Assembly (NCBI RefSeq): GCF_009649955.1
Contig: NZ_CP045875.1
Span: 1,407,501-1,471,500, forward strand
Direction of reading: 5' to 3'
DNA length: 64,000 nt
DNA from: Heliorestis convoluta
Lineage (GTDB): Bacteria > Bacillota > Desulfitobacteriia > Heliobacteriales > Heliobacteriaceae
Shown one piece after another: positions 9,649-54,330 of this stretch. Position numbers and translations under genes: made by a program. How positions within the stretch are numbered: position 1 is the stretch's first letter; each line of letters starts with the position of its first letter. The notes under the pieces were generated by a model that saw nothing but the letters and a program-made list of their open reading frames with translations, was not told where the DNA came from and did no database searches.

Positions 9649-9726
9649 TCTTTCACGCAATTTTCATCTTTAGTTGTGCCCGACCGGGCATGCCTGGTTA
9701 CTTCGAAAATAGTTACCCTGTGTTGG

Positions 9727-9839
9727 GGGCAGGCGTTATGAATTCCTTCCGAACGGACTCATCCCACGCCATGAGCGGCAGCAAGCTGCCGATGGCTGAG
9801 GTCTGAAGTCCTCTCTACAGGAATTCATAACGCCTGCCC
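9727..9839. repeat. Hairpin repeat A1
   Basis: Perfect 20-base arms (9727-9746 and 9820-9839; GGGCAGGCGTTATG... against its complement) enclose an inner structure: GGACT/AGTCC, GCCAT/ATGGC and an apical CGGCAG-CAAG-CTGCCG stem-loop. The interior is almost identical to that of A2 at 28197-28270 in inverse orientation. Confidence 0.85.
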
Positions 9840-9981
9840 TAGTTACATCTTGCTGGTTGAGACGAACCAATTGCCTATTGCAAATACAACAGCCAGTTGC
9901 GTATAGCCAGTTGCGTATACATAGCAGGAAGTTACGCCAAGTTATTCCAACGGCGGGAGTAACAATCAGCAAAAACCTTCT

Positions 9982-10096
9982 GGGCCAGGGCATCACGCTT
10001 TCCGCAGCGGGACTTGGGACCTCAGCTGTCGCCAGCTTGCTGGCGGTAACAGCGTGGGACCAGTCCAGAGCGGAGGAAAGCGTGATGCCCTGGCCC
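9982..10096. repeat. Hairpin repeat B1
   Basis: Perfect 22-base arms (9982-10003 and 10075-10096; core GCATCACGCTTTCC) enclose an interior with the apical stem CGCCAGC-TT-GCTGGCG. It shares its plan with the A hairpins when read in reverse complement, with paired substitutions in the stems. Confidence 0.85.
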
Positions 10097-10184
10097 CTCT
10101 ACAAGGTTTCTCTATCATCCCTCGTCGTAACACAGATGGACCATGCAACACATCTATCTCAATGAAGAGGCAACGAACCCCCTT

Positions 10185-27218: not shown

Positions 27219-27809
27219 CTACACAATCGAACGCTTTTTCAAATATTGCACCACTTGATCTACACTCTCATCTAAACTAAAACGATCCGTCTCAATAGTA
27301 AGAGCAGGCGCCGTCGGCTCTTCATAAGGCGAGCTAATACCTGTAAAAAAGGGAATCTTGCCAGCACGTGCTTTTTGATAAAGACCTTTCGGATCTCGTC
27401 GTTCACACTCTTCCAAAGAGCATTTTACATAGATTTCAATAAACTCTTCCTCCGCTACAAGCTGGCGAACCTGGTCCCGATCTTCACGAAAAGGTGAGAT
27501 AAAAGCCGTTAAAACCACAATCCCAGCATCAACAAAAAGCTTAGACACTTCACCAATACGACGGATATTTTCCTGACGATCTTGATCAGAAAAGCCTAAA
27601 TCTTTGTTCAGACCGTGACGTACATTATCACCATCTAGAAGATAGCTATGAACTTTCTTTTCATACAGCTTGCGCTCCACAGCATTGGCCAACGTCGATT
27701 TGCCCGAACCAGACAACCCGGTAAACCATAAGATAGCGCTTTTATGACCTTTTTGTTTTTGTCTCTCGTCCTTAGAAAGGACCGTTTCATGCCAAAATAT
27801 ATTATTCAT
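27219..27809 (-). CDS. cysC: Adenylylsulfate (APS) kinase
   Basis: Phosphorylates APS to PAPS. 196 residues. [18 protein letters not shown] is the P-loop. [34 protein letters not shown] and FISPFREDR are the APS-binding segments of CysC. GGAGGAGG precedes the ATG. It is 60 bases upstream of the sulfite reductase gene on the same strand. With cysH reading as an APS reductase, CysC may supply PAPS for other sulfations or a parallel route. Confidence 0.95.
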
Positions 27810-27938
27810 TACAAAAACCTCCTCCGTTAATAACCCAACTGCCTACCAACAGCCTATTTACGAACCCCATGCCCATTCGGGTACAAACAAAGAGCAAAAT
27901 TAACTATCGCTAATTACCTTGGGGGTACTTTACCTAGG

Positions 27939-28052
27939 GGCCAGGTCATCACGCTTTCCTCCGCTCTGGACTGGTCCCACGCTGTTACCGCCAGCAAAGC
28001 TGGCGACAGCTGAGGTCCCAAGTCCCGCTACGGAAAGCGTGATGCCCAGTCC
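27939..28052. repeat. Hairpin repeat B2
   Basis: Arms 27939-27959 and 28032-28052 share the core ATCACGCTTTCC and its complement, with a few mismatches at their outer ends. The interior is nearly identical to the reverse complement of B1. Confidence 0.8.
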
Positions 28053-28175
28053 CAGAGGTTTTTTTGCTGATTGTTACTCCCCTTGGCATTGCTTTGTGTA
28101 AATTTCTGCTATATACGTAACTGCCTGTATTTTTCAATAAGCCATTTGGTTATTCACAGCCAGCAAGATGTACCT

Positions 28176-28291
28176 GGGTCAGGACTTATTCATTCCTGGA
28201 GAGAGGACTTCAGACCTCAGCCATCGGCAGCTTTGCTGCCGCTCATGGCGTGGGATGAGTCCGTTCGGAAGGAATGAATAAGTCCTGACCC
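28176..28291. repeat. Hairpin repeat A2
   Basis: Perfect 21-base arms (28176-28196 and 28271-28291; GGGTCAGGACTTATTC... with its complement). The interior 28197-28270 matches the reverse complement of the A1 interior with only a few differences, although the arms differ at many positions. Confidence 0.85.
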
Positions 28292-28314
28292 CACCACAGG
28301 GTATCTATTTCGTG

Positions 28315-29388
28315 CTATATCCCCCCACCTTGATCATGAATCGCCCGTCTCTCCTGCTGAATCGACTTCGCCAAACTAATAGCACCGACAGTAGCAATAA
28401 AAAGACTTGCCAAGACGAGTAAAGTATAATAATCGGCTTTGATAAAAAGCTGAATAAAACCGTAAGAAAGAACCAGAGACAGCAGAGGCGAAACAACCCA
28501 AACTTTAAGAATTTGCTTAATAATCCCTTTTTGCCAGAGCATAAAACCTTGACGCGCTGTTCCGATGCCCATAATCCCTGAGGTAGTCACTTGCGTCAGA
28601 GGTACAGGCAAACCGAAAATGGAAGCAATAATAACAAGGCCGCCGCCCGTAAAAGATACAGCACTCCCTTGAAGCAGCGTTAGATTGGTAATGCGCTTGC
28701 CATTTGTTTCGAGCACTCTTCCTCCCATTAAAAGAGCACCGACGGCAACGAAAAGTCCACCGTAGAGAACGCCATTGTTCACATCTATCATACCAGCTCC
28801 AACGAGGGGACCAACGGCGTTGGCCACGTTGTTCATTCCGGCTGCGAAGGCTTCTAAGGTGCCTGCTGTAATGAGCAAGATGACGAGGGGCTTTTTCCAC
28901 TTGCCTTCCCCTTTGAGCTGGGGCCAACGCTTTTCCATTTTCAGAACGAATTTGCCAAAAAAGTAAGACAACGAAAAAGCCACGATGGGCGTTATTACCC
29001 AGAAAGAGACAATCAAAGCGAGCTTGTCGTAATAGAGAGCTTGAAAAGCAATCCCTGCACCCACTATAGAGCCTACGACAACTTCACTCGTTGACAAAGG
29101 GATGGCCATAAGATTGGCAATAAACAAAGTTAAGCAGGCAGCAGCCAAAATAATAACGACCAATTCTACCGTTACAATGGAAGAGGGAATGATGCCAGAG
29201 CCGATGGTGCGAACAACTTCACCACCGGCTAAAGCACCCAGGAAAACAGCAATGGCTACTACGAGTAGGGCTGTTCTTTTTTTCAATGCGCCGCTTCCAT
29301 AAGCGGGGCCCATGGACGCAGCCGTTCCACTCGCGCCAATATTCATGGCGAAAAAGAAGGCTACGGCAAAGGCAATATAGATAAGCAT
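28315..29388 (-). CDS. cysP: PiT-family permease, probable sulfate permease CysP
   Basis: An integral membrane protein of 357 residues with about ten helices and the two PiT repeats. The signatures appear as AMNIGASGTAASMGPAYGSGAL in the first half and GMNNVANAVGPLVGAGMID in the second. PiT proteins usually carry phosphate, but in Bacillus subtilis the PiT member CysP carries sulfate. Here it lies between cysC and sat, so sulfate is the likely substrate. AGGTGA precedes the ATG at 29388. The compound repeat directly follows its stop. Confidence 0.8.
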   Translation of the reverse strand: MLIYIAFAVAFFFAMNIGASGTAASMGPAYGSGALKKRTALLVVAIAVFLGALAGGEVVRTIGSGIIPSSIVTVELVVIILAAACLTLFIANLMAIPLSTSEVVVGSIVGAGIAFQALYYDKLALIVSFWVITPIVAFSLSYFFGKFVLKMEKRWPQLKGEGKWKKPLVILLITAGTLEAFAAGMNNVANAVGPLVGAGMIDVNNGVLYGGLFVAVGALLMGGRVLETNGKRITNLTLLQGSAVSFTGGGLVIIASIFGLPVPLTQVTTSGIMGIGTARQGFMLWQKGIIKQILKVWVVSPLLSLVLSYGFIQLFIKADYYTLLVLASLFIATVGAISLAKSIQQERRAIHDQGGGI

Positions 29389-29464
29389 GGGCTGTCACCT
29401 GCTTTTTATCAATCTACGCTAGCAATCCACTTTTCTATCATAGAAGAGGCAGTCTTACTAGAAA

Positions 29465-30598
29465 TCAATCTTTCTCCTGCAAGCCTTTAATCAAGACTTG
29501 AGCCACTTCGGCTCTTGTAAATTCTGGTGGCGGTACAATGCCCTGATGTAGCATCTCGCGAACTTTAGTCCCTGAAAGCGTTAGATGATGTTCTTTCCCG
29601 TGGGGGCAAGTCTTCGAAGAGGCCATGTTACCGCATTTTTTGCAGAAAAAGGTGTGTTCAAAAAATAAAGGTCGAATGCCCAGTTCATGGCTGTTGAAAT
29701 TTTTGAAAATTTCCTGGGCTTCATAGGTGCCATAGTAGTTGCCCACACCGGCATGATCCCGTCCTACAATAAAGTGTGTGCAGCCATAATTTTTACGTAC
29801 TAAGGCATGAAAGACAGCTTCTCGCGGTCCGGCGTAGCGCATGGCCGCTGGGAAAAAGGCCATGAAGACACGATCCTGGGGATAGTAGTTTTCTAGAAGT
29901 ACTTGATAGCTTTCTGTTCTGATTTCTGCAGAAATATCATCAGACTTGGTCTCACCAACCAGTGGATTGAGAAACAATCCATCAACAATCTCTAACGCTG
30001 CTTTTTGAATATATTCATGGGCTCGATGAACAGGGTTGCGTGTCTGAAAGCCCACAATCCGCTCCCAGTTGCGACGAGCAAATTCCGCTCTTGTCTCGGC
30101 TGGCGTGAGATAGAACTGTTGAAACTTTTGACGCTGTAAGGGCTGAAGTACAACAACATCACCGGCTAGGTAGATATCGCCTCGCTCGAAAAGCCTTTTC
30201 ACACCGGGATGGTCTAGATCAGTTGTCTTATAGGCCTGGTAGGCTTCTTCTTTTTTGTCAGGACGAAACTTTTCTTCTACCGCTAGCACACCGTAGACAT
30301 CACCCTGGTAGGTAAGCTTCACTTTGCTGCCCAGAGGAATCTTTTGGGCCACTGCTTCTGTTACGGGTAGTGTAATGGGTAGAGGCCAGATGGAGCCGTT
30401 TTGTAAACGCATAGACTGAAGAACTTGATTGTAATCTTGCTGATTCATAAAGCCACGCAAAGGACTATAACCACCGTTACCGAGTAGCTCCAAATCAGAA
30501 AGAGCATAAAAATCAATTTCTACCGCTTCTGTAAGGGCACTTATGTCGTAGGTTGGGTTAAGCAGATTCACAAGTTCCGATTTTTTAGACAAGGTCAT
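29465..30598 (-). CDS. sat: Sulfate adenylyltransferase (ATP sulfurylase)
   Basis: Makes APS from sulfate and ATP. About 377 residues of the monofunctional ATP-sulfurylase type. The active-site stretch [15 protein letters not shown] and [17 protein letters not shown] are present, plus a C-terminal zinc-ribbon-like [16 protein letters not shown] and [18 protein letters not shown] lies eight bases before the ATG at 30598; a GTG three codons earlier is too close to the site. It lies between cysH and cysP on one strand. Confidence 0.95.
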
Positions 30599-30686
30599 AT
30601 AGGACACTCCTTTTTATCTTTTTGCTATATAGCCACTTTATCAAGATCAAAGCACGTCACGAGGAACCCTCCTTATTCAGGACACC

Positions 30687-31400
30687 TTATCGGTGTAGGC
30701 CACACTCTGTCTTACTTTGACCGGCCCAACGACCGGCTCGGCTATCGCCATCTTCATCAACAGGCGCTGTACAAGGTGCACAGCCTATACTAGGATAGCG
30801 TTGATCATGTAGTTCGTTATAAGGCAACTGGTGCAAGCGGATATACATCCACACTTCCTCCCAGGTCCAATGAATGAGAGGGCATACTTTGACTTTGCCA
30901 AATCGATTGTCTGGATTGATAAACTGAATATGTTGCCTTGTCTGGCTTTGTTCTCGGCGCAAGCCTGAAAGCCAGGCGCTATAGTTATGCAGCGCTTTCT
31001 CTAAAGGAACCATCTTGCGAATCTGGCAACAGCGGTCCGGCTCTTTCTTCCAAAGTTCAGGACTTTCTTTTTGAGCTTGTTCTTGCAGTGTTATCGTTGC
31101 TTTTACCATTTCAATCTTCAGTTCAGGGTAACGAGCTTTCACTGCATCAATAAGTTGATACGTTTCTGGAAAATGCAAGTCTGTATCAATAAAAATAAGC
31201 TCAGCTTTGGGATTGACTTTGCTAATGAGATCAATGAGAACCATTGCTTCAGCACCAAAGCTACAAGCATAGACTAGGTCCTTACCCCAACGTTCGTAGG
31301 CCCAGCGAAGAACGAACACTGTGTCTTGTTCGGCCAGAGACTGGTTCAATGATTCGTAATCTTCTGTAGTGAGATTTTGATAAGAAAGTTGCTTCTCCAT
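30687..31400 (-). CDS. cysH: Thioredoxin-dependent APS reductase (CysH family)
   Basis: Reduces APS to sulfite and AMP. 237 residues. The PP-loop region is CSFGAEAMVLIDL. Cysteine pairs CCQIRKMVPLEKAL and YPSIGCAPCTAPV ligate the 4Fe-4S cluster that separates APS reductases from PAPS reductases. The catalytic C-terminal motif KTECGLH is present. GGAGGTG lies five bases before the ATG. It heads the run cysH, sat, cysP, cysC, sulfite reductase, about 120 bases downstream of yezD with a hairpin between. Confidence 0.95.
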   Translation of the reverse strand: MEKQLSYQNLTTEDYESLNQSLAEQDTVFVLRWAYERWGKDLVYACSFGAEAMVLIDLISKVNPKAELIFIDTDLHFPETYQLIDAVKARYPELKIEMVKATITLQEQAQKESPELWKKEPDRCCQIRKMVPLEKALHNYSAWLSGLRREQSQTRQHIQFINPDNRFGKVKVCPLIHWTWEEVWMYIRLHQLPYNELHDQRYPSIGCAPCTAPVDEDGDSRAGRWAGQSKTECGLHR

Positions 31401-31430
31401 GGGAACACCTCCACGCTATCTGTATAGACA

Positions 31431-31467
31431 AAAAAGCGCCATTGACACTTCTTTATGTCACTGGCGC
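31431..31467 (-). terminator. Terminator or attenuator between yezD and cysH
   Basis: GCGCCATTGACA (31436-31447) pairs with TGTCACTGGCGC (31456-31467) with one mismatch. On the minus strand it is followed by TTTTTTG. It could end yezD transcripts or modulate read-through into cysH. Confidence 0.7.
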
Positions 31468-31518
31468 CTCTAGTATTTCTAGTCGGCACAATTGAGAATA
31501 TGTTCCTTTTACCTGAAC

Positions 31519-31698
31519 TCACTTTAGCCTGATTTTTTCATTCTTTTCTAGTTGAATAACTTGCCCATCTTGCACCACCAGGGTGATGGTGCCATAGCGA
31601 AGGGAGGCGAGCATCTTTTCAAGATGTTGATACAATAAGCTGTCAGGAGCCTCCTTCAGTTGTCCTTGCTCTTTGCTTGTGACGGCTTTTTTGATCAT
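31519..31698 (-). CDS. yezD: YezD/DUF2292 family small protein
   Basis: A 59-residue reading frame. The C-terminal half, MLASLRYGTITLVVQDGQVIQLEKNEKIRL, has the pattern of the DUF2292/YezD family, whose members often lie next to sulfur-assimilation genes; their function is unknown. GGAGG lies eight bases before the ATG at 31698. It is the first gene after a near-consensus promoter and precedes cysH, so it is probably the leader gene of the sulfate-assimilation unit. Confidence 0.8.
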   Translation of the reverse strand: MIKKAVTSKEQGQLKEAPDSLLYQHLEKMLASLRYGTITLVVQDGQVIQLEKNEKIRLK

Positions 31699-31765
31699 CC
31701 GGCATGCCTCCAGTTCCTTATTTTTAATCCCGAGTATTCATATCGGTTTTCCTATGTTTAATCTT

Positions 31766-31794
31766 ATTGTAGCGACTGGGCTTTCTGCTGTCAA
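31766..31794 (-). promoter_or_regulatory. Near-consensus sigma-A promoter of the yezD-cysH unit
   Basis: On the minus strand TTGACA (31794-31789), a 17-base spacer, then TACAAT (31771-31766). The start of transcription would be about 60 bases before the yezD ATG. I saw no S-box (SAM riboswitch) core in the leader. Confidence 0.75.
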
Positions 31795-31836
31795 CGGGTC
31801 TTCGTGAAAAAAACTAGAAAAAGTGCAAAAAAAAAA

Positions 31837-31882
31837 GACAAGGTCTTTTCCTCTGAATAAGATCAGAGGAAAAGACCTTGTC
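31837..31882 (-). terminator. Strong terminator after ppiB
   Basis: A perfect 20-bp stem (31837-31856 with 31863-31882) and a 6-base loop, followed on the minus strand by ten U. About 100 bases separate it from the ppiB stop, and that gap holds the hairpin-free repeat copy. Confidence 0.9.
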
Positions 31883-31896
31883 AAATACCTGATTCC

Positions 31897-31979
31897 GTTG
31901 GGGCTACTTTATACAGGCCTGGTCATCACGCTGTCACAACCAGCAAAATCTACCTGCCCCCACCACAAGATATTGTCGC
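31897..31979. repeat. Compound repeat, copy 3, lacking both hairpins
   Basis: GGGGCTACTTTATACAGG and CCTGGTCATCACGCTG match the left end of copy 2; CAACCAGCAAAATCTACCTG then CCCCACCACAAGATATTG match its spacer end and right end. Hairpin A is missing exactly between TACCTG and CCCACC. Most of hairpin B and of the spacer are also gone. It lies just after the ppiB stop. Confidence 0.7.
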
Positions 31980-31984
31980 ACTAA

Positions 31985-32419
31985 TTATTCTACTTCTTCA
32001 ATTGTAACCTTCGTCATTCTATCGCCTCGACGAATATCATCAACAACCTCAAGCCCTTCTACAACACGACCAAATACCGTATGATTGCCATCTAGGTGTG
32101 GCTGGGGGCTGTGGCAGACAAAGAATTGACTGCCTCCTGTATCACGGCCTGCATGAGCCATGGAGAGGGATCCACGCATATGCTTATTCGGGTTGTTCTG
32201 AACTTCGCAGGGAATGGTATATCCAGGTCCACCAGAACCTGTTCCATTGGGGCAACCACCCTGAATAACGAAGTCAGGAATCACACGGTGAAAGGTTAAG
32301 CCATCGTAATAGCCTTCCTTAATCAGCTTTTCAAAGTTGGCCACTGTGCCAGGGGCGTCTTTTTCATAGAGTTCAACTACCATAGTTCCTTTTTCTGTCT
32401 CAATGATTGCTTTTTTCAC
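31985..32419 (-). CDS. ppiB: Cyclophilin-type peptidyl-prolyl cis-trans isomerase
   Basis: Catalyses proline isomerisation during protein folding. 144 residues, a minimal cytoplasmic cyclophilin with no signal peptide. Motifs are [47 protein letters not shown] and [14 protein letters not shown]. The start is a GTG at 32419 with TTGGAGG eight bases upstream. Monocistronic. Confidence 0.95.
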
Positions 32420-40544: not shown

Positions 40545-40679
40545 CAGTGATTACACCTCTCTCTTAATCTACTAGTGTATAGGAGTAAGGTGTTACATGT
40601 GTAGAACTTTTCCTGTTAATCTTTATTCGTTATGAAGAATATATTTCCTGCTATTTTAGGGTGGCATGGGGGGTTAACA

Positions 40680-41006
<327 letters not shown>

Positions 41007-41363: not shown

Positions 41364-41438
41364 TGGAGCGGAAGACGAGATTCGAACTCGCGACCCTCGC
41401 CTTGGCAAGGCGATGCTCTACCACTGAGCCACTTCCGC
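41364..41438 (-). tRNA. tRNA-Gly (GCC)
   Basis: Cloverleaf with anticodon loop TTGCCAA, encoded CCA, last gene of cluster A. Nearly the same sequence lies at 54089-54163. Confidence 0.95.
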
Positions 41439-41441
41439 AAG

Positions 41442-41524
41442 TGGTGCGGTCGAGAGGACTTGAACCTCCACGGTTGCCCGCTGGAACCTAAATCCAGTGC
41501 GTCTGCCAATTCCGCCACGACCGC
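41442..41524 (-). tRNA. tRNA-Leu (TAG)
   Basis: Long variable arm, anticodon loop TTTAGGT, acceptor GCGGTCG/CGACCGC, encoded CCA. Not present in cluster B, which has Leu(CAG) at the matching place. Confidence 0.93.
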
Positions 41525-41546
41525 AAATAAAATTGTATAGTAAAGA

Positions 41547-41622
41547 TGGAGCCAGCGACAGGAATTGAACCCGCAACCTACTGATTACAAGTCAGTTGCT
41601 CTACCGATTGAGCTACGCTGGC
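41547..41622 (-). tRNA. tRNA-Thr (TGT)
   Basis: Anticodon loop TTGTAAT, acceptor GCCAGCG/CGCTGGC, encoded CCA. Confidence 0.95.
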
Positions 41623-41630
41623 AAACAAGA

Positions 41631-41721
41631 TGGCGGAGTGGGAGGGATTTGAACCCTCGCTGGACTTACGCCCACTAACGGTTTAGCAAACCGTCCTCTT
41701 CAGCCGCTTGAGTACCACTCC
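41631..41721 (-). tRNA. tRNA-Ser (GCT)
   Basis: Class II with long variable arm, anticodon loop TTGCTAA, acceptor GGAGTGG/CCACTCC, encoded CCA. Confidence 0.95.
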
Positions 41722-41728
41722 ATATAAA

Positions 41729-41805
41729 TGGCGGAGCTGACGGGATTCGAACCCGCGGTCTCCTGCGTGACAGGCAGGCATGTTAGGCCTCTACACCACA
41801 GCTCC
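41729..41805 (-). tRNA. tRNA-Asp (GTC)
   Basis: Anticodon loop CTGTCAC, acceptor GGAGCTG/CAGCTCC, discriminator G, encoded CCA. Confidence 0.95.
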
Positions 41806-41811
41806 ATTTTT

Positions 41812-41887
41812 TGGTGGGCGATGACAGGATCGAACTGCCGACCCCCTGCTTGTAAGGCAGGTGCTCTCCCAGCTGAGCTAATCGCCC
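41812..41887 (-). tRNA. tRNA-Val (TAC)
   Basis: Anticodon loop CTTACAA, acceptor GGGCGAT/ATCGCCC, encoded CCA. Confidence 0.95.
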
Positions 41888-41895
41888 TAAATAAT

Positions 41896-41971
41896 TGGTG
41901 ACCCGTAGGGGATTCGAACCCCTGTTACCGCCGTGAAAGGGCGGTGTCTTAGACCACTTGACCAACGGGCC
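41896..41971 (-). tRNA. tRNA-Glu (TTC)
   Basis: Anticodon loop CTTTCAC, acceptor GGCCCGT/ACGGGTC with one G-T pair, encoded CCA. Confidence 0.95.
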
Positions 41972-41976
41972 CTACA

Positions 41977-42052
41977 TGGTGATCCATGCTGGACTCGAAC
42001 CAGCGACACCCTGATTAAAAGTCAGGTGCTCTACCAACTGAGCTAATGGATC
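41977..42052 (-). tRNA. tRNA-Lys (TTT)
   Basis: Anticodon loop CTTTTAA, acceptor GATCCAT/ATGGATC, encoded CCA. Confidence 0.95.
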
Positions 42053-42057
42053 TTATA

Positions 42058-42132
42058 TGGCTGGGGAGGCTGGATTCGAACCAACGAATGGCGGAGTCAA
42101 AGTCCGCTGCCTTACCACTTGGCTACACCCCA
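42058..42132 (-). tRNA. tRNA-Gln (TTG)
   Basis: Anticodon loop TTTGACT, U1-A72 acceptor TGGGGTG typical of tRNA-Gln, one T-T mismatch in the stem shared with the cluster B copy, encoded CCA. Confidence 0.93.
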
Positions 42133-42137
42133 AAAAT

Positions 42138-42221
<84 letters not shown>

Positions 42222-42229
42222 AAGGAAGA

Positions 42230-42305
<76 letters not shown>

Positions 42306-42313
42306 ATACTAAA

Positions 42314-42390
42314 TGGTGGACGATGACGGAATCGAACCGCCGACCCCTTGCATGTCAAGCAAGTACTCTAACCAGCTGAGCTAATCGTCC
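42314..42390 (-). tRNA. tRNA-Val (GAC)
   Basis: Anticodon loop TTGACAT, acceptor GGACGAT/ATCGTCC, encoded CCA. Confidence 0.93.
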
Positions 42391-42400
42391 AGTGTTTTTT

Positions 42401-42477
42401 TGGTAGCGGTGGTAGGATTTGAACCTACGACCCTACGGGTATGAACCGTATGCTCTGACCAACTGAGCTACACCGCC
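42401..42477 (-). tRNA. tRNA-Met (CAT), elongator type
   Basis: Anticodon loop TTCATAC, acceptor GGCGGTG with ACCA end. The sequence resembles elongator Met; a lysidine-modified Ile(CAT) cannot be fully excluded. Confidence 0.88.
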
Positions 42478-42485
42478 AAATACCG

Positions 42486-42572
42486 TGGTGCCGAAGGCCG
42501 GGGTCGAACCGGCACGAAGTTTCCCTCACTGGTTTTTGAGACCAGCGCGTCTGCCAATTCCGCCACTTCGGC
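42486..42572 (-). tRNA. tRNA-Leu (CAA)
   Basis: Long variable arm, anticodon loop CTCAAAA, anticodon stem CTGGT/ACCAG intact here, acceptor GCCGAAG/CTTCGGC, encoded CCA. Confidence 0.95.
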
Positions 42573-42597
42573 ATATTACATATAGCTGTTATATAAT

Positions 42598-42672
<75 letters not shown>

Positions 42673-42673
42673 A

Positions 42674-42750
42674 TGGGGTGGCTGATGGGACTTGAACCCA
42701 CGAGTGCCGGAGCCACAATCCGGTGCGTTAACCACTTCGCCACAACCACC
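42674..42750 (-). tRNA. tRNA-His (GTG)
   Basis: Anticodon loop TTGTGGC, extra G-1 opposite discriminator C as expected for His, encoded CCA. Confidence 0.95.
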
Positions 42751-42783
42751 ATAATATAATTTCTTAGAACTCTAACTTTAAAG

Positions 42784-42860
<77 letters not shown>

Positions 42861-42863
42861 CTA

Positions 42864-42937
42864 TGGAGCGGGTGATGGGAATCGAACCCACGTAGCTAGC
42901 TTGGAAGGCTAGAGCTTTACCATTAAGCTACACCCGC
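42864..42937 (-). tRNA. tRNA-Gly (TCC)
   Basis: Anticodon loop CTTCCAA, acceptor GCGGGTG/CACCCGC, encoded CCA. Confidence 0.95.
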
Positions 42938-42951
42938 ATTTTTAAGAGATA

Positions 42952-43028
42952 TGGTCGGGGTGACACGACTTGAACGTGCGGCCTCCTGCTCCCAAGGCAG
43001 GCGCTCCACCAAACTGAGCTACACCCCG
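42952..43028 (-). tRNA. tRNA-Pro (TGG)
   Basis: Anticodon loop CTTGGGA, acceptor CGGGGTG/CACCCCG, encoded CCA. Confidence 0.93.
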
Positions 43029-43037
43029 ATTCTTCTA

Positions 43038-43129
43038 TGGCGGAGAAAGAGGGATTCGAACCCTCGAGACGGTTTTGCCGCCTACACGATTTCCAATCGT
43101 GCGCCTTCGACCAACTCGGCCATCTCTCC
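43038..43129 (-). tRNA. tRNA-Ser (GGA)
   Basis: Class II, anticodon loop TTGGAAA, acceptor GGAGAGA paired with TTTCTCC through one G-T wobble; cluster B has the Watson-Crick form. Confidence 0.95.
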
Positions 43130-43137
43130 TGATAAAT

Positions 43138-43213
43138 TGGTTGCGGGGACAGGACTTGAACCTGTGACCTTCGGGTTATGAGCCCGACGAGCTGCCAGCT
43201 GCTCCACCCCGCG
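43138..43213 (-). tRNA. tRNA-fMet (CAT), initiator
   Basis: Anticodon loop CTCATAA, stem GGG/CCC before the loop, and a C1-A72 mismatch (CGCGGGG/CCCCGCA), the initiator marks. Confidence 0.95.
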
Positions 43214-43219
43214 TCATTA

Positions 43220-43295
43220 TGGCTCCTCGAGTAGGACTCGAACCTACAACCTACCGGTTAACAGCCGGTTGCTCTACCGATTGAGCTATCGAGGA
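43220..43295 (-). tRNA. tRNA-Asn (GTT)
   Basis: Anticodon loop CTGTTAA, acceptor TCCTCGA/TCGAGGA, encoded CCA. First gene of cluster A after the 23S fragment. Confidence 0.95.
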
Positions 43296-43374: not shown

Positions 43375-43554
<180 letters not shown>

Positions 43555-43555
<1 letters not shown>

Positions 43556-43670
43556 CTTCCCACTACGTAAGTAGGTAAGACCCCAGGAAGATGACCTGGT
43601 TGATCGGCTCGAGATGGAAGCGCTGTGAGGCGTGTAGTTGACGAGTACGAATCGGTCGAGGACTTAACCT
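43555..43670 (+). rRNA. 23S rRNA, 3' fragment (about 115 nt), plus strand
   Basis: Begins at ACTTCCCACTACGTAAGTAGG and ends GAGGACTTAACCT, a second 23S 3' end pointing away from the minus-strand fragment. A terminator and then adhE follow it; no 5S is present. Confidence 0.9.
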
Positions 43671-51751: not shown

Positions 51752-51847
51752 TTTGGAGAGTTTGATCCTGGCTCAGGACGAACGCTGGCGGCATGCCTAA
51801 CACATGCAAGTCGAACGGAGCTTCAAAGTAGCTTGCTACTTTGTGCA
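51752..51847 (+). rRNA. 16S rRNA, 5' fragment (about 95 nt) fused to 23S
   Basis: GGAGAGTTTGATCCTGGCTC to helix 6 (AGTAGCTTGCTACTTTGTG) and then directly 23S sequence. The junction sits at AGCG, a short overlap shared by both RNAs. Helix 6 differs in sequence from the fragment at 40680-41006. Confidence 0.9.
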
Positions 51848-52033
<186 letters not shown>

Positions 52034-52142: not shown

Positions 52143-52218
52143 TCCTCGATAGCTCAATCGGTAGAGCAACCGGCTGTTAACCGGTAGGTTGTAGGTTCGA
52201 GTCCTACTCGAGGAGCCA
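52143..52218 (+). tRNA. tRNA-Asn (GTT)
   Basis: First gene of cluster B; anticodon loop CTGTTAA; same as 43220-43295. Confidence 0.95.
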
Positions 52219-52224
52219 TAATGA

Positions 52225-52300
52225 CGCGGGGTGGAGCAGCTGGCAGCTCGTCGGGCTCATAACCCGAAGGTCACAGGTTCAAGTCCTGTCCCCGCAACCA
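52225..52300 (+). tRNA. tRNA-fMet (CAT), initiator
   Basis: C1-A72 mismatch, loop CTCATAA, GGG/CCC stem; encoded CCA. Confidence 0.95.
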
Positions 52301-52308
52301 ATTTATCA

Positions 52309-52400
52309 GGAGAGATGGCCGAGTTGGTCGAAGGCGCACGATTGGAAATCGTGTAGGCGGCAAAACCGTCTCGAGGGTTCGAATCCCTCTCTCTCCGCCA
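52309..52400 (+). tRNA. tRNA-Ser (GGA)
   Basis: Class II, loop TTGGAAA; acceptor fully paired GGAGAGA/TCTCTCC. Confidence 0.95.
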
Positions 52401-52409
52401 TAGAAGAAT

Positions 52410-52486
52410 CGGGGTGTAGCTCAGTTTGGTGGAGCGCCTGCCTTGGGAGCAGGAGGCCGCACGTTCAAGTCGTGTCACCCCGACCA
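52410..52486 (+). tRNA. tRNA-Pro (TGG)
   Basis: Loop CTTGGGA, acceptor CGGGGTG/CACCCCG, encoded CCA. Confidence 0.93.
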
Positions 52487-52500
52487 TTTTTCTTAAAAAT

Positions 52501-52574
52501 GCGGGTGTAGCTTAATGGTAAAGCTCTAGCCTTCCAAGCTAGCTACGTGGGTTCGATTCCCATCACCCGCTCCA
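52501..52574 (+). tRNA. tRNA-Gly (TCC)
   Basis: Loop CTTCCAA, acceptor GCGGGTG/CACCCGC, encoded CCA. Confidence 0.95.
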
Positions 52575-52577
52575 TAG

Positions 52578-52654
<77 letters not shown>

Positions 52655-52688
52655 CTTTTCAGTTGGCGTTCTAAAGAAAATATATTAT

Positions 52689-52765
52689 GGTGGTTGTGGC
52701 GAAGTGGTTAACGCACCGGATTGTGGCTCCGGCACTCGTGGGTTCAAGTCCCATCAGCCACCCCA
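52689..52765 (+). tRNA. tRNA-His (GTG)
   Basis: Loop TTGTGGC with G-1 and discriminator C; encoded CCA. Confidence 0.95.
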
Positions 52766-52766
52766 T

Positions 52767-52841
<75 letters not shown>

Positions 52842-52866
52842 ATTATATAACAGTTATATGTAATAT

Positions 52867-52953
52867 GCCGAAGTGGCGGAATTGGCAGACGCGCTGGTCT
52901 CAAAAACCTGTGAGGGAAACTTCGTGCCGGTTCGACCCCGGCCTTCGGCACCA
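52867..52953 (+). tRNA. tRNA-Leu (CAA)
   Basis: Long variable arm, loop CTCAAAA. The anticodon stem reads CTGGT/ACCTG, so one base pair is broken relative to cluster A. Confidence 0.92.
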
Positions 52954-52961
52954 CAGTATTT

Positions 52962-53038
52962 GGCGGTGTAGCTCAGTTGGTCAGAGCATACGGTTCATAC
53001 CCGTAGGGTCGTAGGTTCAAATCCTACCACCGCTACCA
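52962..53038 (+). tRNA. tRNA-Met (CAT), elongator type
   Basis: Loop TTCATAC, acceptor GGCGGTG, ACCA end; as at 42401-42477. Confidence 0.88.
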
Positions 53039-53046
53039 AAAACACT

Positions 53047-53123
53047 GGACGATTAGCTCAGCTGGTTAGAGTACTTGCTTGACATGCAAGGGGTCGGCGG
53101 TTCGATTCCGTCATCGTCCACCA
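53047..53123 (+). tRNA. tRNA-Val (GAC)
   Basis: Loop TTGACAT, acceptor GGACGAT/ATCGTCC, encoded CCA. Confidence 0.93.
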
Positions 53124-53131
53124 TTTAGTAT

Positions 53132-53207
<76 letters not shown>

Positions 53208-53215
53208 TCTTCCCT

Positions 53216-53299
<84 letters not shown>

Positions 53300-53304
53300 T
53301 TTTT

Positions 53305-53379
53305 TGGGGTGTAGCCAAGTGGTAAGGCAGCGGACTTTGACTCCGCCATTCGTTGGTTCGAATCCAGCCTCCCCAGCCA
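53305..53379 (+). tRNA. tRNA-Gln (TTG)
   Basis: Loop TTTGACT, U1-A72 acceptor, encoded CCA. Confidence 0.93.
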
Positions 53380-53384
53380 TATAA

Positions 53385-53460
53385 GATCCATTAGCTCAGT
53401 TGGTAGAGCACCTGACTTTTAATCAGGGTGTCGCTGGTTCGAGTCCAGCATGGATCACCA
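53385..53460 (+). tRNA. tRNA-Lys (TTT)
   Basis: Loop CTTTTAA, acceptor GATCCAT/ATGGATC, encoded CCA. Confidence 0.95.
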
Positions 53461-53465
53461 TGTAG

Positions 53466-53541
53466 GGCCCGTTGGTCAAGTGGTCTAAGACACCGCCCTT
53501 TCACGGCGGTAACAGGGGTTCGAATCCCCTACGGGTCACCA
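53466..53541 (+). tRNA. tRNA-Glu (TTC)
   Basis: Loop CTTTCAC, acceptor GGCCCGT/ACGGGTC, encoded CCA. Confidence 0.95.
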
Positions 53542-53548
53542 AAATATT

Positions 53549-53624
53549 GGGCGATTAGCTCAGCTGGGAGAGCACCTGCCTTACAAGCAGGGGGTCGGCA
53601 GTTCGATCCTGTCATCGCCCACCA
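53549..53624 (+). tRNA. tRNA-Val (TAC)
   Basis: Loop CTTACAA, acceptor GGGCGAT/ATCGCCC, encoded CCA. Confidence 0.95.
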
Positions 53625-53631
53625 AAAAAAT

Positions 53632-53708
53632 GGAGCTGTGGTGTAGAGGCCTAACATGCCTGCCTGTCACGCAGGAGACCGCGGGTTCGAATCCCGTCAG
53701 CTCCGCCA
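53632..53708 (+). tRNA. tRNA-Asp (GTC)
   Basis: Loop CTGTCAC, acceptor GGAGCTG/CAGCTCC, encoded CCA. Confidence 0.95.
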
Positions 53709-53715
53709 TTTATAT

Positions 53716-53806
53716 GGAGTGGTACTCAAGCGGCTGAAGAGGACGGTTTGCTAAACCGTTAGTGGGCGTAAGTCCAGCGAGGGTTCAAATCCCTCCCACT
53801 CCGCCA
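53716..53806 (+). tRNA. tRNA-Ser (GCT)
   Basis: Class II, loop TTGCTAA, acceptor GGAGTGG/CCACTCC, encoded CCA. Confidence 0.95.
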
Positions 53807-53814
53807 CGACGTTT

Positions 53815-53890
<76 letters not shown>

Positions 53891-53899
53891 CTTTTCTTA

Positions 53900-53976
53900 C
53901 GGGGCGTAGCTCAGCTTGGTAGAGCGCTACCTTGGGGTGGTAGAGGTCGCACGTTCAAGTCGTGTCGCTCCGACCA
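53900..53976 (+). tRNA. tRNA-Pro (GGG)
   Basis: Anticodon stem CTACC/GGTAG with loop TTGGGGT; acceptor CGGGGCG/CGCTCCG with one wobble. Only in cluster B. Confidence 0.92.
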
Positions 53977-53997
53977 TTCAAAAAACCCCAAACACTT

Positions 53998-54084
53998 GCG
54001 GTCGTGGCGGAATTGGCAGACGCGCTAGATTCAGGTTCTAGTGGTCGCAAGGCTGTGGAGGTTCAAGTCCTCTCGACCGCACCA
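53998..54084 (+). tRNA. tRNA-Leu (CAG)
   Basis: Long variable arm, stem CTAGA/TCTAG with loop TTCAGGT, acceptor GCGGTCG/CGACCGC. Only in cluster B. Confidence 0.93.
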
Positions 54085-54088
54085 TTAA

Positions 54089-54163
54089 GCGGAAGTGGCT
54101 CAGTGGTAGAGCATCGCCTTGCCAAGGCGAGGGTCGCGAGTTCGAATCTCGTCTTCCGCTCCA
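54089..54163 (+). tRNA. tRNA-Gly (GCC)
   Basis: Loop TTGCCAA, acceptor GCGGAAG/CTTCCGC, encoded CCA; matches 41364-41438. Confidence 0.95.
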
Positions 54164-54166
54164 TTC

Positions 54167-54241
54167 GCGCCCGTAGCTCAGTGGATAGAGCACTGGTCTC
54201 CGGAACCAGGTGCGCAAGTTCGATTCTTGCCGGGCGCACCA
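54167..54241 (+). tRNA. tRNA-Arg (CCG)
   Basis: Stem CTGGT/ACCAG with loop CTCCGGA, acceptor GCGCCCG/CGGGCGC, encoded CCA. Only in cluster B. Confidence 0.94.
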
Positions 54242-54254
54242 TTTGTTGTGATAT

Positions 54255-54330
54255 AGGGGAGTAGCTCAACTGGCAGAGCGGCGGTCTCCAAAACCGTAGG
54301 TTGCGGGTTCAAGTCCTGTCTCCCCTGCCA
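54255..54330 (+). tRNA. tRNA-Trp (CCA)
   Basis: Loop CTCCAAA, acceptor AGGGGAG/CTCCCCT, encoded CCA. Last tRNA of cluster B; an integrase gene begins 180 bases on. Confidence 0.95.

Follow-up and report, generated by a model that had tools for sequence, protein, structure and literature searches.

The locus under study lies in the window, the whole stretch of 64,000 nucleotides analysed here, which corresponds to G000:C1:1407501-1471500 of the single 3,218,981-base contig of Heliorestis convoluta. A short repeat remnant, copy 3, sits there between the stop codon (31985) of a gene that we take, from its sequence, to encode a cyclophilin-type peptidyl-prolyl isomerase and an inverted repeat at 31837-31882 that is probably the terminator of this gene. 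Two further copies of the same compound element occur in the window. Positions within the element are given relative to a 501-nt consensus, E, built from 58 full copies. Hairpins are named as they follow one another in copy 2: hairpin B (28176-28291) was called A2 in the original prediction, while hairpin A (27932-28059) presumably corresponds to the hairpin B of that text. The features are as follows.

9673..10101, minus strand: third element copy in the window (L093), E82-499, 89% identity to the consensus
27865..28317, plus strand: copy 2, full compound element, E14-473, 87% identity to the consensus
27932..28059, plus strand: hairpin A of copy 2, inverted repeat with a covariance model match; MFE -73.7 kcal/mol and z -8.4 for 27930-28062
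28060..28175, plus strand: spacer of copy 2, weakly folded in this copy (z -1.1)
28176..28291, plus strand: hairpin B of copy 2, 116 nt, inverted repeats with a covariance model match; z -11.0 for 28170-28296
31837..31882, minus strand: perfect inverted repeat of 20 bp, with a minus-strand T run, just beyond copy 3 (repeat search and sequence)
31888..31915, plus strand: left scaffold of copy 3, about E58-85 (BLAST against the consensus, E58-107, 84%)
31916..31932, plus strand: 17-nt remnant of the hairpin A 5' arm, GGCCTGGTCATCACGCT, read from the sequence; full copies have the same arm
31933..31956, plus strand: 24-nt remnant of the spacer 3' end, ending in TACCTG; E309-332, 92% to the consensus, pattern match with 1 mismatch
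31957..31984, plus strand: right scaffold of copy 3, beginning CCCCCACCACAAG and fused directly to TACCTG (sequence read)
31985..32419, minus strand: cyclophilin-type peptidyl-prolyl isomerase gene adjoining copy 3 (ORF)

Copy 3 extends over 31888-31984, beyond the limits 31897-31979 of the original prediction, with its right end touching the cyclophilin stop codon. L093 is probably copy 1 of the original prediction. In copy 2 the inner part of hairpin B approximates the reverse complement of the inner part of hairpin A, and the two hairpins are inverted relative to each other there as in the full copies elsewhere.

The element is widely dispersed in the H. convoluta genome. Parts of the stretch 31850-32030 match 52 other genome places at E values of 1e-3 or lower, which exceeds chance; the best value, 3.5e-9, belongs to 31888-31935, a segment of copy 3 that matches many genome copies. 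Merging the listed matches of searches with copy 3, copy 2 and four short patterns yielded 96 clusters of the compound repeat of about 500 nt, all of which were fetched and about 90 of which are real. Four of them (L046, L087, L096 and L125) could not be matched to the consensus by BLAST and probably represent very short remnants or chance pattern matches. The set of 96 is not exhaustive, the covariance model pointing to at least one additional place (2217421). BLAST with copy 2 recovered the 58 full copies in 57 loci. In their consensus, a C module containing a small palindrome precedes the left scaffold; hairpin A, spacer, hairpin B and right scaffold follow, and another C module closes the element. 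At a module scoring threshold of 0.55, against a shuffled maximum of 0.30, all eight modules were scored in 39 of the 96 clusters and none in 7, the other 50 falling into 24 partial patterns.

Terminator-like hairpins were found near an outer end of the element at 24 of 87 Heliorestis loci; of 87 control windows placed at a distance of 305-400 nt, 1 had such a hairpin. Since the controls probably lie mostly inside genes, the difference shows only that copies sit at gene ends. The C modules were considered as fresh target-site duplications and rejected in this role, being closer to C modules on the same side of other copies than to their own partners: 49 of the 58 full copies were placeable, and in the 11 with C on both sides the mean score was 11.1 between left modules and 13.7 between right modules, against 7.3 between a module and its own partner. 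The C module, with its palindrome TGCCCGGTCGGGCA, is also repeated beside or apart from hairpins in L064, L121 and L060. A further dispersed motif near GTGRCAARCGAAACGTCCCYGTGYCAC flanks many copies (e.g., L081, L103 and L086), and the variant hairpin tips AGCTACTGATRCGCTG and AGCTGCGTGAAAGGCTG recur in several copies of this genome (L048, L049, L053 and L132). By eye, the truncated copies L099 (G000:C1:1681647) and L128 (G000:C1:3035243) abut 16S rRNA-like sequence.

Copy 3 had been proposed to be a hairpin-free version of the compound element and a possible empty site. The observation at the core of that proposal is correct: TACCTG at 31951-31956 runs directly into CCCCCACCACAAG at 31957-31969, i.e., straight into CCCCACC, at the point where copy 2 holds hairpin B (31951-31969 compared with 28176-28291). 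The accompanying statement that copy 3 also lacks the other hairpin and much the greater part of the spacer is accurate as regards the spacer, but hairpin A is not cleanly absent, as 17 nt of its arm persist at 31916-31932. Between this arm and the right scaffold lies the spacer-end piece, GTCACAACCAGCAAAATCTACCTG, and the parts of copy 3 follow one another as in full copies: left scaffold, A arm, spacer end, right scaffold. The C module that terminates many full copies was not seen beside copy 3. The identity of copy 3 to the consensus or to other copies is 84-86%, compared with mostly 89-96% for full copies to the consensus, although few positions stand behind this figure, the parts being 17, 24 and 28 nt long.

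This composition bears directly on the reading of copy 3 as a pre-insertion site, where a scaffold would be yet to receive its hairpins. The clean join at hairpin B and the occurrence of the hairpin tip elsewhere without this scaffold would both suit such a history. On the side of hairpin A, however, it is refuted by the retained arm and the truncated spacer: a site that had never held hairpin A would not contain its arm, so copy 3 is not a never-occupied site. Nor do the other copies lend it support. Left scaffold and spacer end are the only modules scored in copy 3, a combination seen in no other cluster. Among the fetched clusters it alone passes from the spacer end into the right scaffold within 1 nt, while 77 listings place the two 100-119 nt apart, and no second hairpin-free scaffold with both ends was found among the 96 clusters.

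What the comparison of genome copies did reveal is a ragged series of deletions, the pattern that the original prediction had itself named as its refutation. The family displays many differing internal and terminal truncations. In L116 the base of hairpin A passes into the spacer end at a common GTCA with hairpin B kept, so that hairpin A and most of the spacer were lost at almost the same place as in copy 3. The loop of hairpin A is joined to the spacer end at a repeated CCAGCAAG in L047 and L081, the 5' half of A is fused to the 3' half of B in L097 and L065, and in L120 and L075 the arms of one hairpin are kept with the top gone; L044, L098, L115, L071 and L112 have termini at differing places. 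With all of this against it, a pre-insertion origin appears highly improbable, and the site claimed as empty is thereby removed from consideration. Copy 3 is best read as an ordinary deletion relic: we are confident, short of certainty, that it is a decayed deletion derivative of the dispersed compound element, lodged between the cyclophilin gene and its presumed terminator.

The steps of this decay can be outlined conditionally. A single slippage event between the CCTG repeats that bound the palindrome at its base (TACCTG...GCCTGACCCC) may have removed hairpin B, slippage across a palindrome between short repeats being a standard route to such a deletion product. The join is clean to within one base; it contains five C rather than four, and it is therefore the product of a CCTG-to-CCTG deletion only if one A-to-C change is admitted. 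A second deletion, for which homology was slight or absent, would have taken hairpin A and most of the spacer; for the join between the A arm and the spacer end, where no convincing repeat was found, any mechanism is a guess. After both deletions the remnant would have drifted.

A clean join of this kind could also result from precise excision, in which an enzyme, e.g., of the IS200/IS605 or RAYT type, would remove hairpin B and the donor site would be resealed. The join does fall at the base of the palindrome, and the genome does encode a Y1 transposase: the search with PF01797 returned one match in H. convoluta, a 136-aa TnpA beside a TnpB-like ORF, and three matches in the congener H. acidaminivorans, with ORFs of 240-308 aa. 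Of the two transposase types that the original prediction proposed to look for, the IS200/IS605 type is present, while no RAYT-type protein was found in the H. convoluta genome. The ends of the IS200/IS605 element nevertheless look, by eye, unlike the hairpins, and it was rejected as the obvious mobiliser. Since, moreover, such a join was seen only once among the fetched clusters and CCTG slippage would yield the same product with no enzyme needed, excision of hairpin B seems unlikely, and slippage during the decay of copy 3 is the route favoured here.

The corresponding place in the congener (H. acidaminivorans DSM 24790, NZ_WBXO01000002.1) offers a partial comparison. Its cyclophilin ortholog is 87% identical, with no element downstream and a different hairpin with a T run soon past the stop codon; the next gene differs, gene order being kept on one side only, so that this is not a strict empty-site comparison.

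The hairpins themselves have a distribution of their own. A DNA search of 40 relatives and the own genome found matches outside the latter in the congener alone, where 14 were recorded, all to hairpin parts only. A covariance model of the hairpin tip, R1, matches four of nine genomes of the family, with at least 149 matches among 150 scored candidates in H. convoluta, 13 in the congener and 5 each in G002 and G006, which represent another heliobacterial genus. Reading of the sequences showed the 3' end of 23S rRNA beside the hairpin in 9 of 10 fetched loci of G002 and G006, L169 being the exception, and Rfam confirmed 23S in both loci submitted (L161 and L170). In a sample of 398 genomes of the phylum the wider model R2 matches at least 10, own included (at least 9 of 397 others), with 10 or more scored matches in each of 6 of the 9 other genomes; given the strict filters, these counts are lower bounds. 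In one of these genomes, G404, the match is mostly to the innermost 35 positions, so that a different repeat may be involved; named relatives of its type carry 90-nt tandem arrays. Such inner-tip arrays, with a TATAAT-like box in each unit, were seen at L245 and L266, in Clostridium sp. D33t1 and Anaeromassilibacillus senegalensis. The exact tip pattern recovered 69 stretches in named genomes, all from Clostridia or other Firmicutes groups, one of them labelled Selenomonadales, and was absent from the viral contigs searched.

The conservation of the tip concerns its pairing. In the tip alignment 93.2% of cells are paired, against a shuffled mean of 84.5%, and 9 pairs changed on both sides, a number as high in 1 of 500 shuffles; the covariation score was reached by none of 500. 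Further pair types did not rise above shuffles (466 of 500 as high). Controls in which the structure was slid along the alignment were paired at 21-53%, a comparison that leans in favour of the structure because the latter was taken from one of the sequences. The outer stems vary among lineages yet, by eye, pair within each. Rfam 15 gave no match to the hairpins, whether at gathering level across the window or, within 27800-32100, at E <= 5, nor was there an Rfam match over the hairpins in the sampled loci of other genomes, and their identity as a known RNA was rejected for this reason. The passages on repeats and palindromes in PMC7143216, which covers H. convoluta HHT, do not describe the repeat. 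As far as the literature searches and Rfam show, the hairpin family appears undescribed.

It had further been suggested that the hairpins are mobile units within a scaffold repeat. Judging by these distributions, the suggestion is supported in a modified form: the hairpins are separable units, as the tip occurs without this scaffold in the congener, in other heliobacteria and, with other outer stems, in distant Clostridia. The tip is probably a separable Clostridia repeat, structured and of older origin, that was copied to many intergenic sites, with outer stems specific to each lineage.

In four of the other genomes, G149, G407, G369 and G073, the hairpin lies inside a short element ending in CAGCTTGTAGACAAA ... 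TTTGTCGACGGTCTG or close variants. G149 carries the tip in 142-nt, ORF-free elements with inverted-repeat ends, and the terminal inverted repeat (TIR) pattern matches there 54 and 43 times, compared with 2 and 8 for the reversed control. Among 30 copies examined in this genome the paired ends lie 141-144 nt apart in 17 and further apart in 13. The longer elements have the same ends and other internal sequence, one folding with z -7.0; structured cores of 265 and 408 nt with the ends of the hairpin elements were seen at L316, L318, L314 and L323.

Direct repeats surround many of these elements. Of 22 copies from the four genomes, 5 lacked clear ends, and 11 of the other 17 have a direct repeat scoring at least 10 outside both ends, a score reached by 0 of 272 mismatched left-right pairs. 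The 30 copies of G149 scored at least 10 in 17 cases, 5-9 in 6, 1 in 1 and 0 in 6; 0 of 870 mismatched pairs reached 10, the maximum being 4. These two sets overlap, as 10 of the 30 are among the 22 and 9 of those among the 17. By element length, scores of at least 10 were obtained in 14 of 17 copies of 141-144 nt, 1 of 7 of 199-203 nt, 1 of 4 of 264-268 nt and 1 of 2 of 408 nt. The flanking repeats in G149 are 16-28 nt long, and most resemble terminator stem-loops in appearance. Across 92 tip sites of other genomes the direct-repeat scan placed repeats consistently for the CATGTATTAT subfamily alone. G182 shares this stem type; the 3 of its loci that were scanned showed no such repeat, and its 10 copies were excluded from the 22-copy count. 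In G149, insertion accompanied by duplication of a terminator-like hairpin is thus likely on sequence grounds. In Heliorestis, where the C modules flanking full copies were compared, no pattern of this kind emerged. Its 15 scanned regions with an unpaired TIR contained no obvious autonomous element, ORFs having been listed for 7 and judged by eye.

It is tempting to combine these observations into a single proposal, to which we assign an even chance: an undescribed, non-autonomous mobile family of Clostridia, with a conserved bulged hairpin, would target intrinsic terminators and duplicate the whole terminator hairpin, and in Heliorestis an inverted pair of its hairpins would have been captured. 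The hairpin itself, and no fixed ruler, would then determine the length of the duplication, and insertion would leave a terminator on both sides and hence be nearly harmless. The captured pair would have become part of the composite of about 500 nt, which spread to some 90 sites and is now decaying. If true, this would offer a directly testable case of target recognition by way of a folded hairpin, with insertion at the places where it harms least. The structured repeat is common to several Clostridia families and has no match in Rfam. As a hairpin family it is worth following: its tip is conserved, its outer stems differ between lineages, and in the lineage of G149 its elements are flanked by duplicated terminator-like hairpins.

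Several known systems share features with these elements. Passages of PMC3116915 describe REPINs as REP doublets of inverted palindromic units, and PMC3733652 concerns REP palindromes that are tagged at one end with GTAG or CGTC. REPINs and BIMEs resemble the Heliorestis element in their many extragenic copies, in the two inverted palindromic units with a spacer and in compensatory stem changes. The Heliorestis units, however, are hairpins of about 115-130 nt with a conserved multi-bulge tip, not REPs of 20-40 bp, the composite measures about 500 nt, and its genome yielded no RAYT. The G149 elements, being 142 nt long, free of ORFs, bounded by terminal inverted repeats and flanked by direct duplications, are comparable to bacterial MITEs; they differ from these in that the duplicated stretch is a whole terminator-like hairpin of 16-28 nt, that other, long cores have the same ends, and that no partner transposase was found.

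Group IIC introns are self-splicing, prefer sites at intrinsic terminators and insert beside a stem-loop without duplicating it. They are similar to the G149 elements in their sites at terminators and are set apart by this description and by the lack of an Rfam match to the latter. Intervening sequences of rRNA are similar to the hairpin of G002 and G006 in lying in rRNA operons, but this hairpin is located past the 3' end of 23S rRNA, in the spacer, and not inside an rRNA gene.

The window itself also contains truncated rRNA operons and tRNA arrays. Near 51754-52023 on the plus strand, a 16S 5' end is joined to a 23S 3' end; a partial 16S is located at 40582-41001 on the minus strand, and a 23S 3' end near 43385-43670, also on the minus strand, appears inverted and duplicated. 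Next to these rRNA fragments lie two long tRNA arrays, at 41367-43295 (minus strand) and 52143-54327 (plus strand), which are oriented in opposite directions and closely match each other in scores and order.
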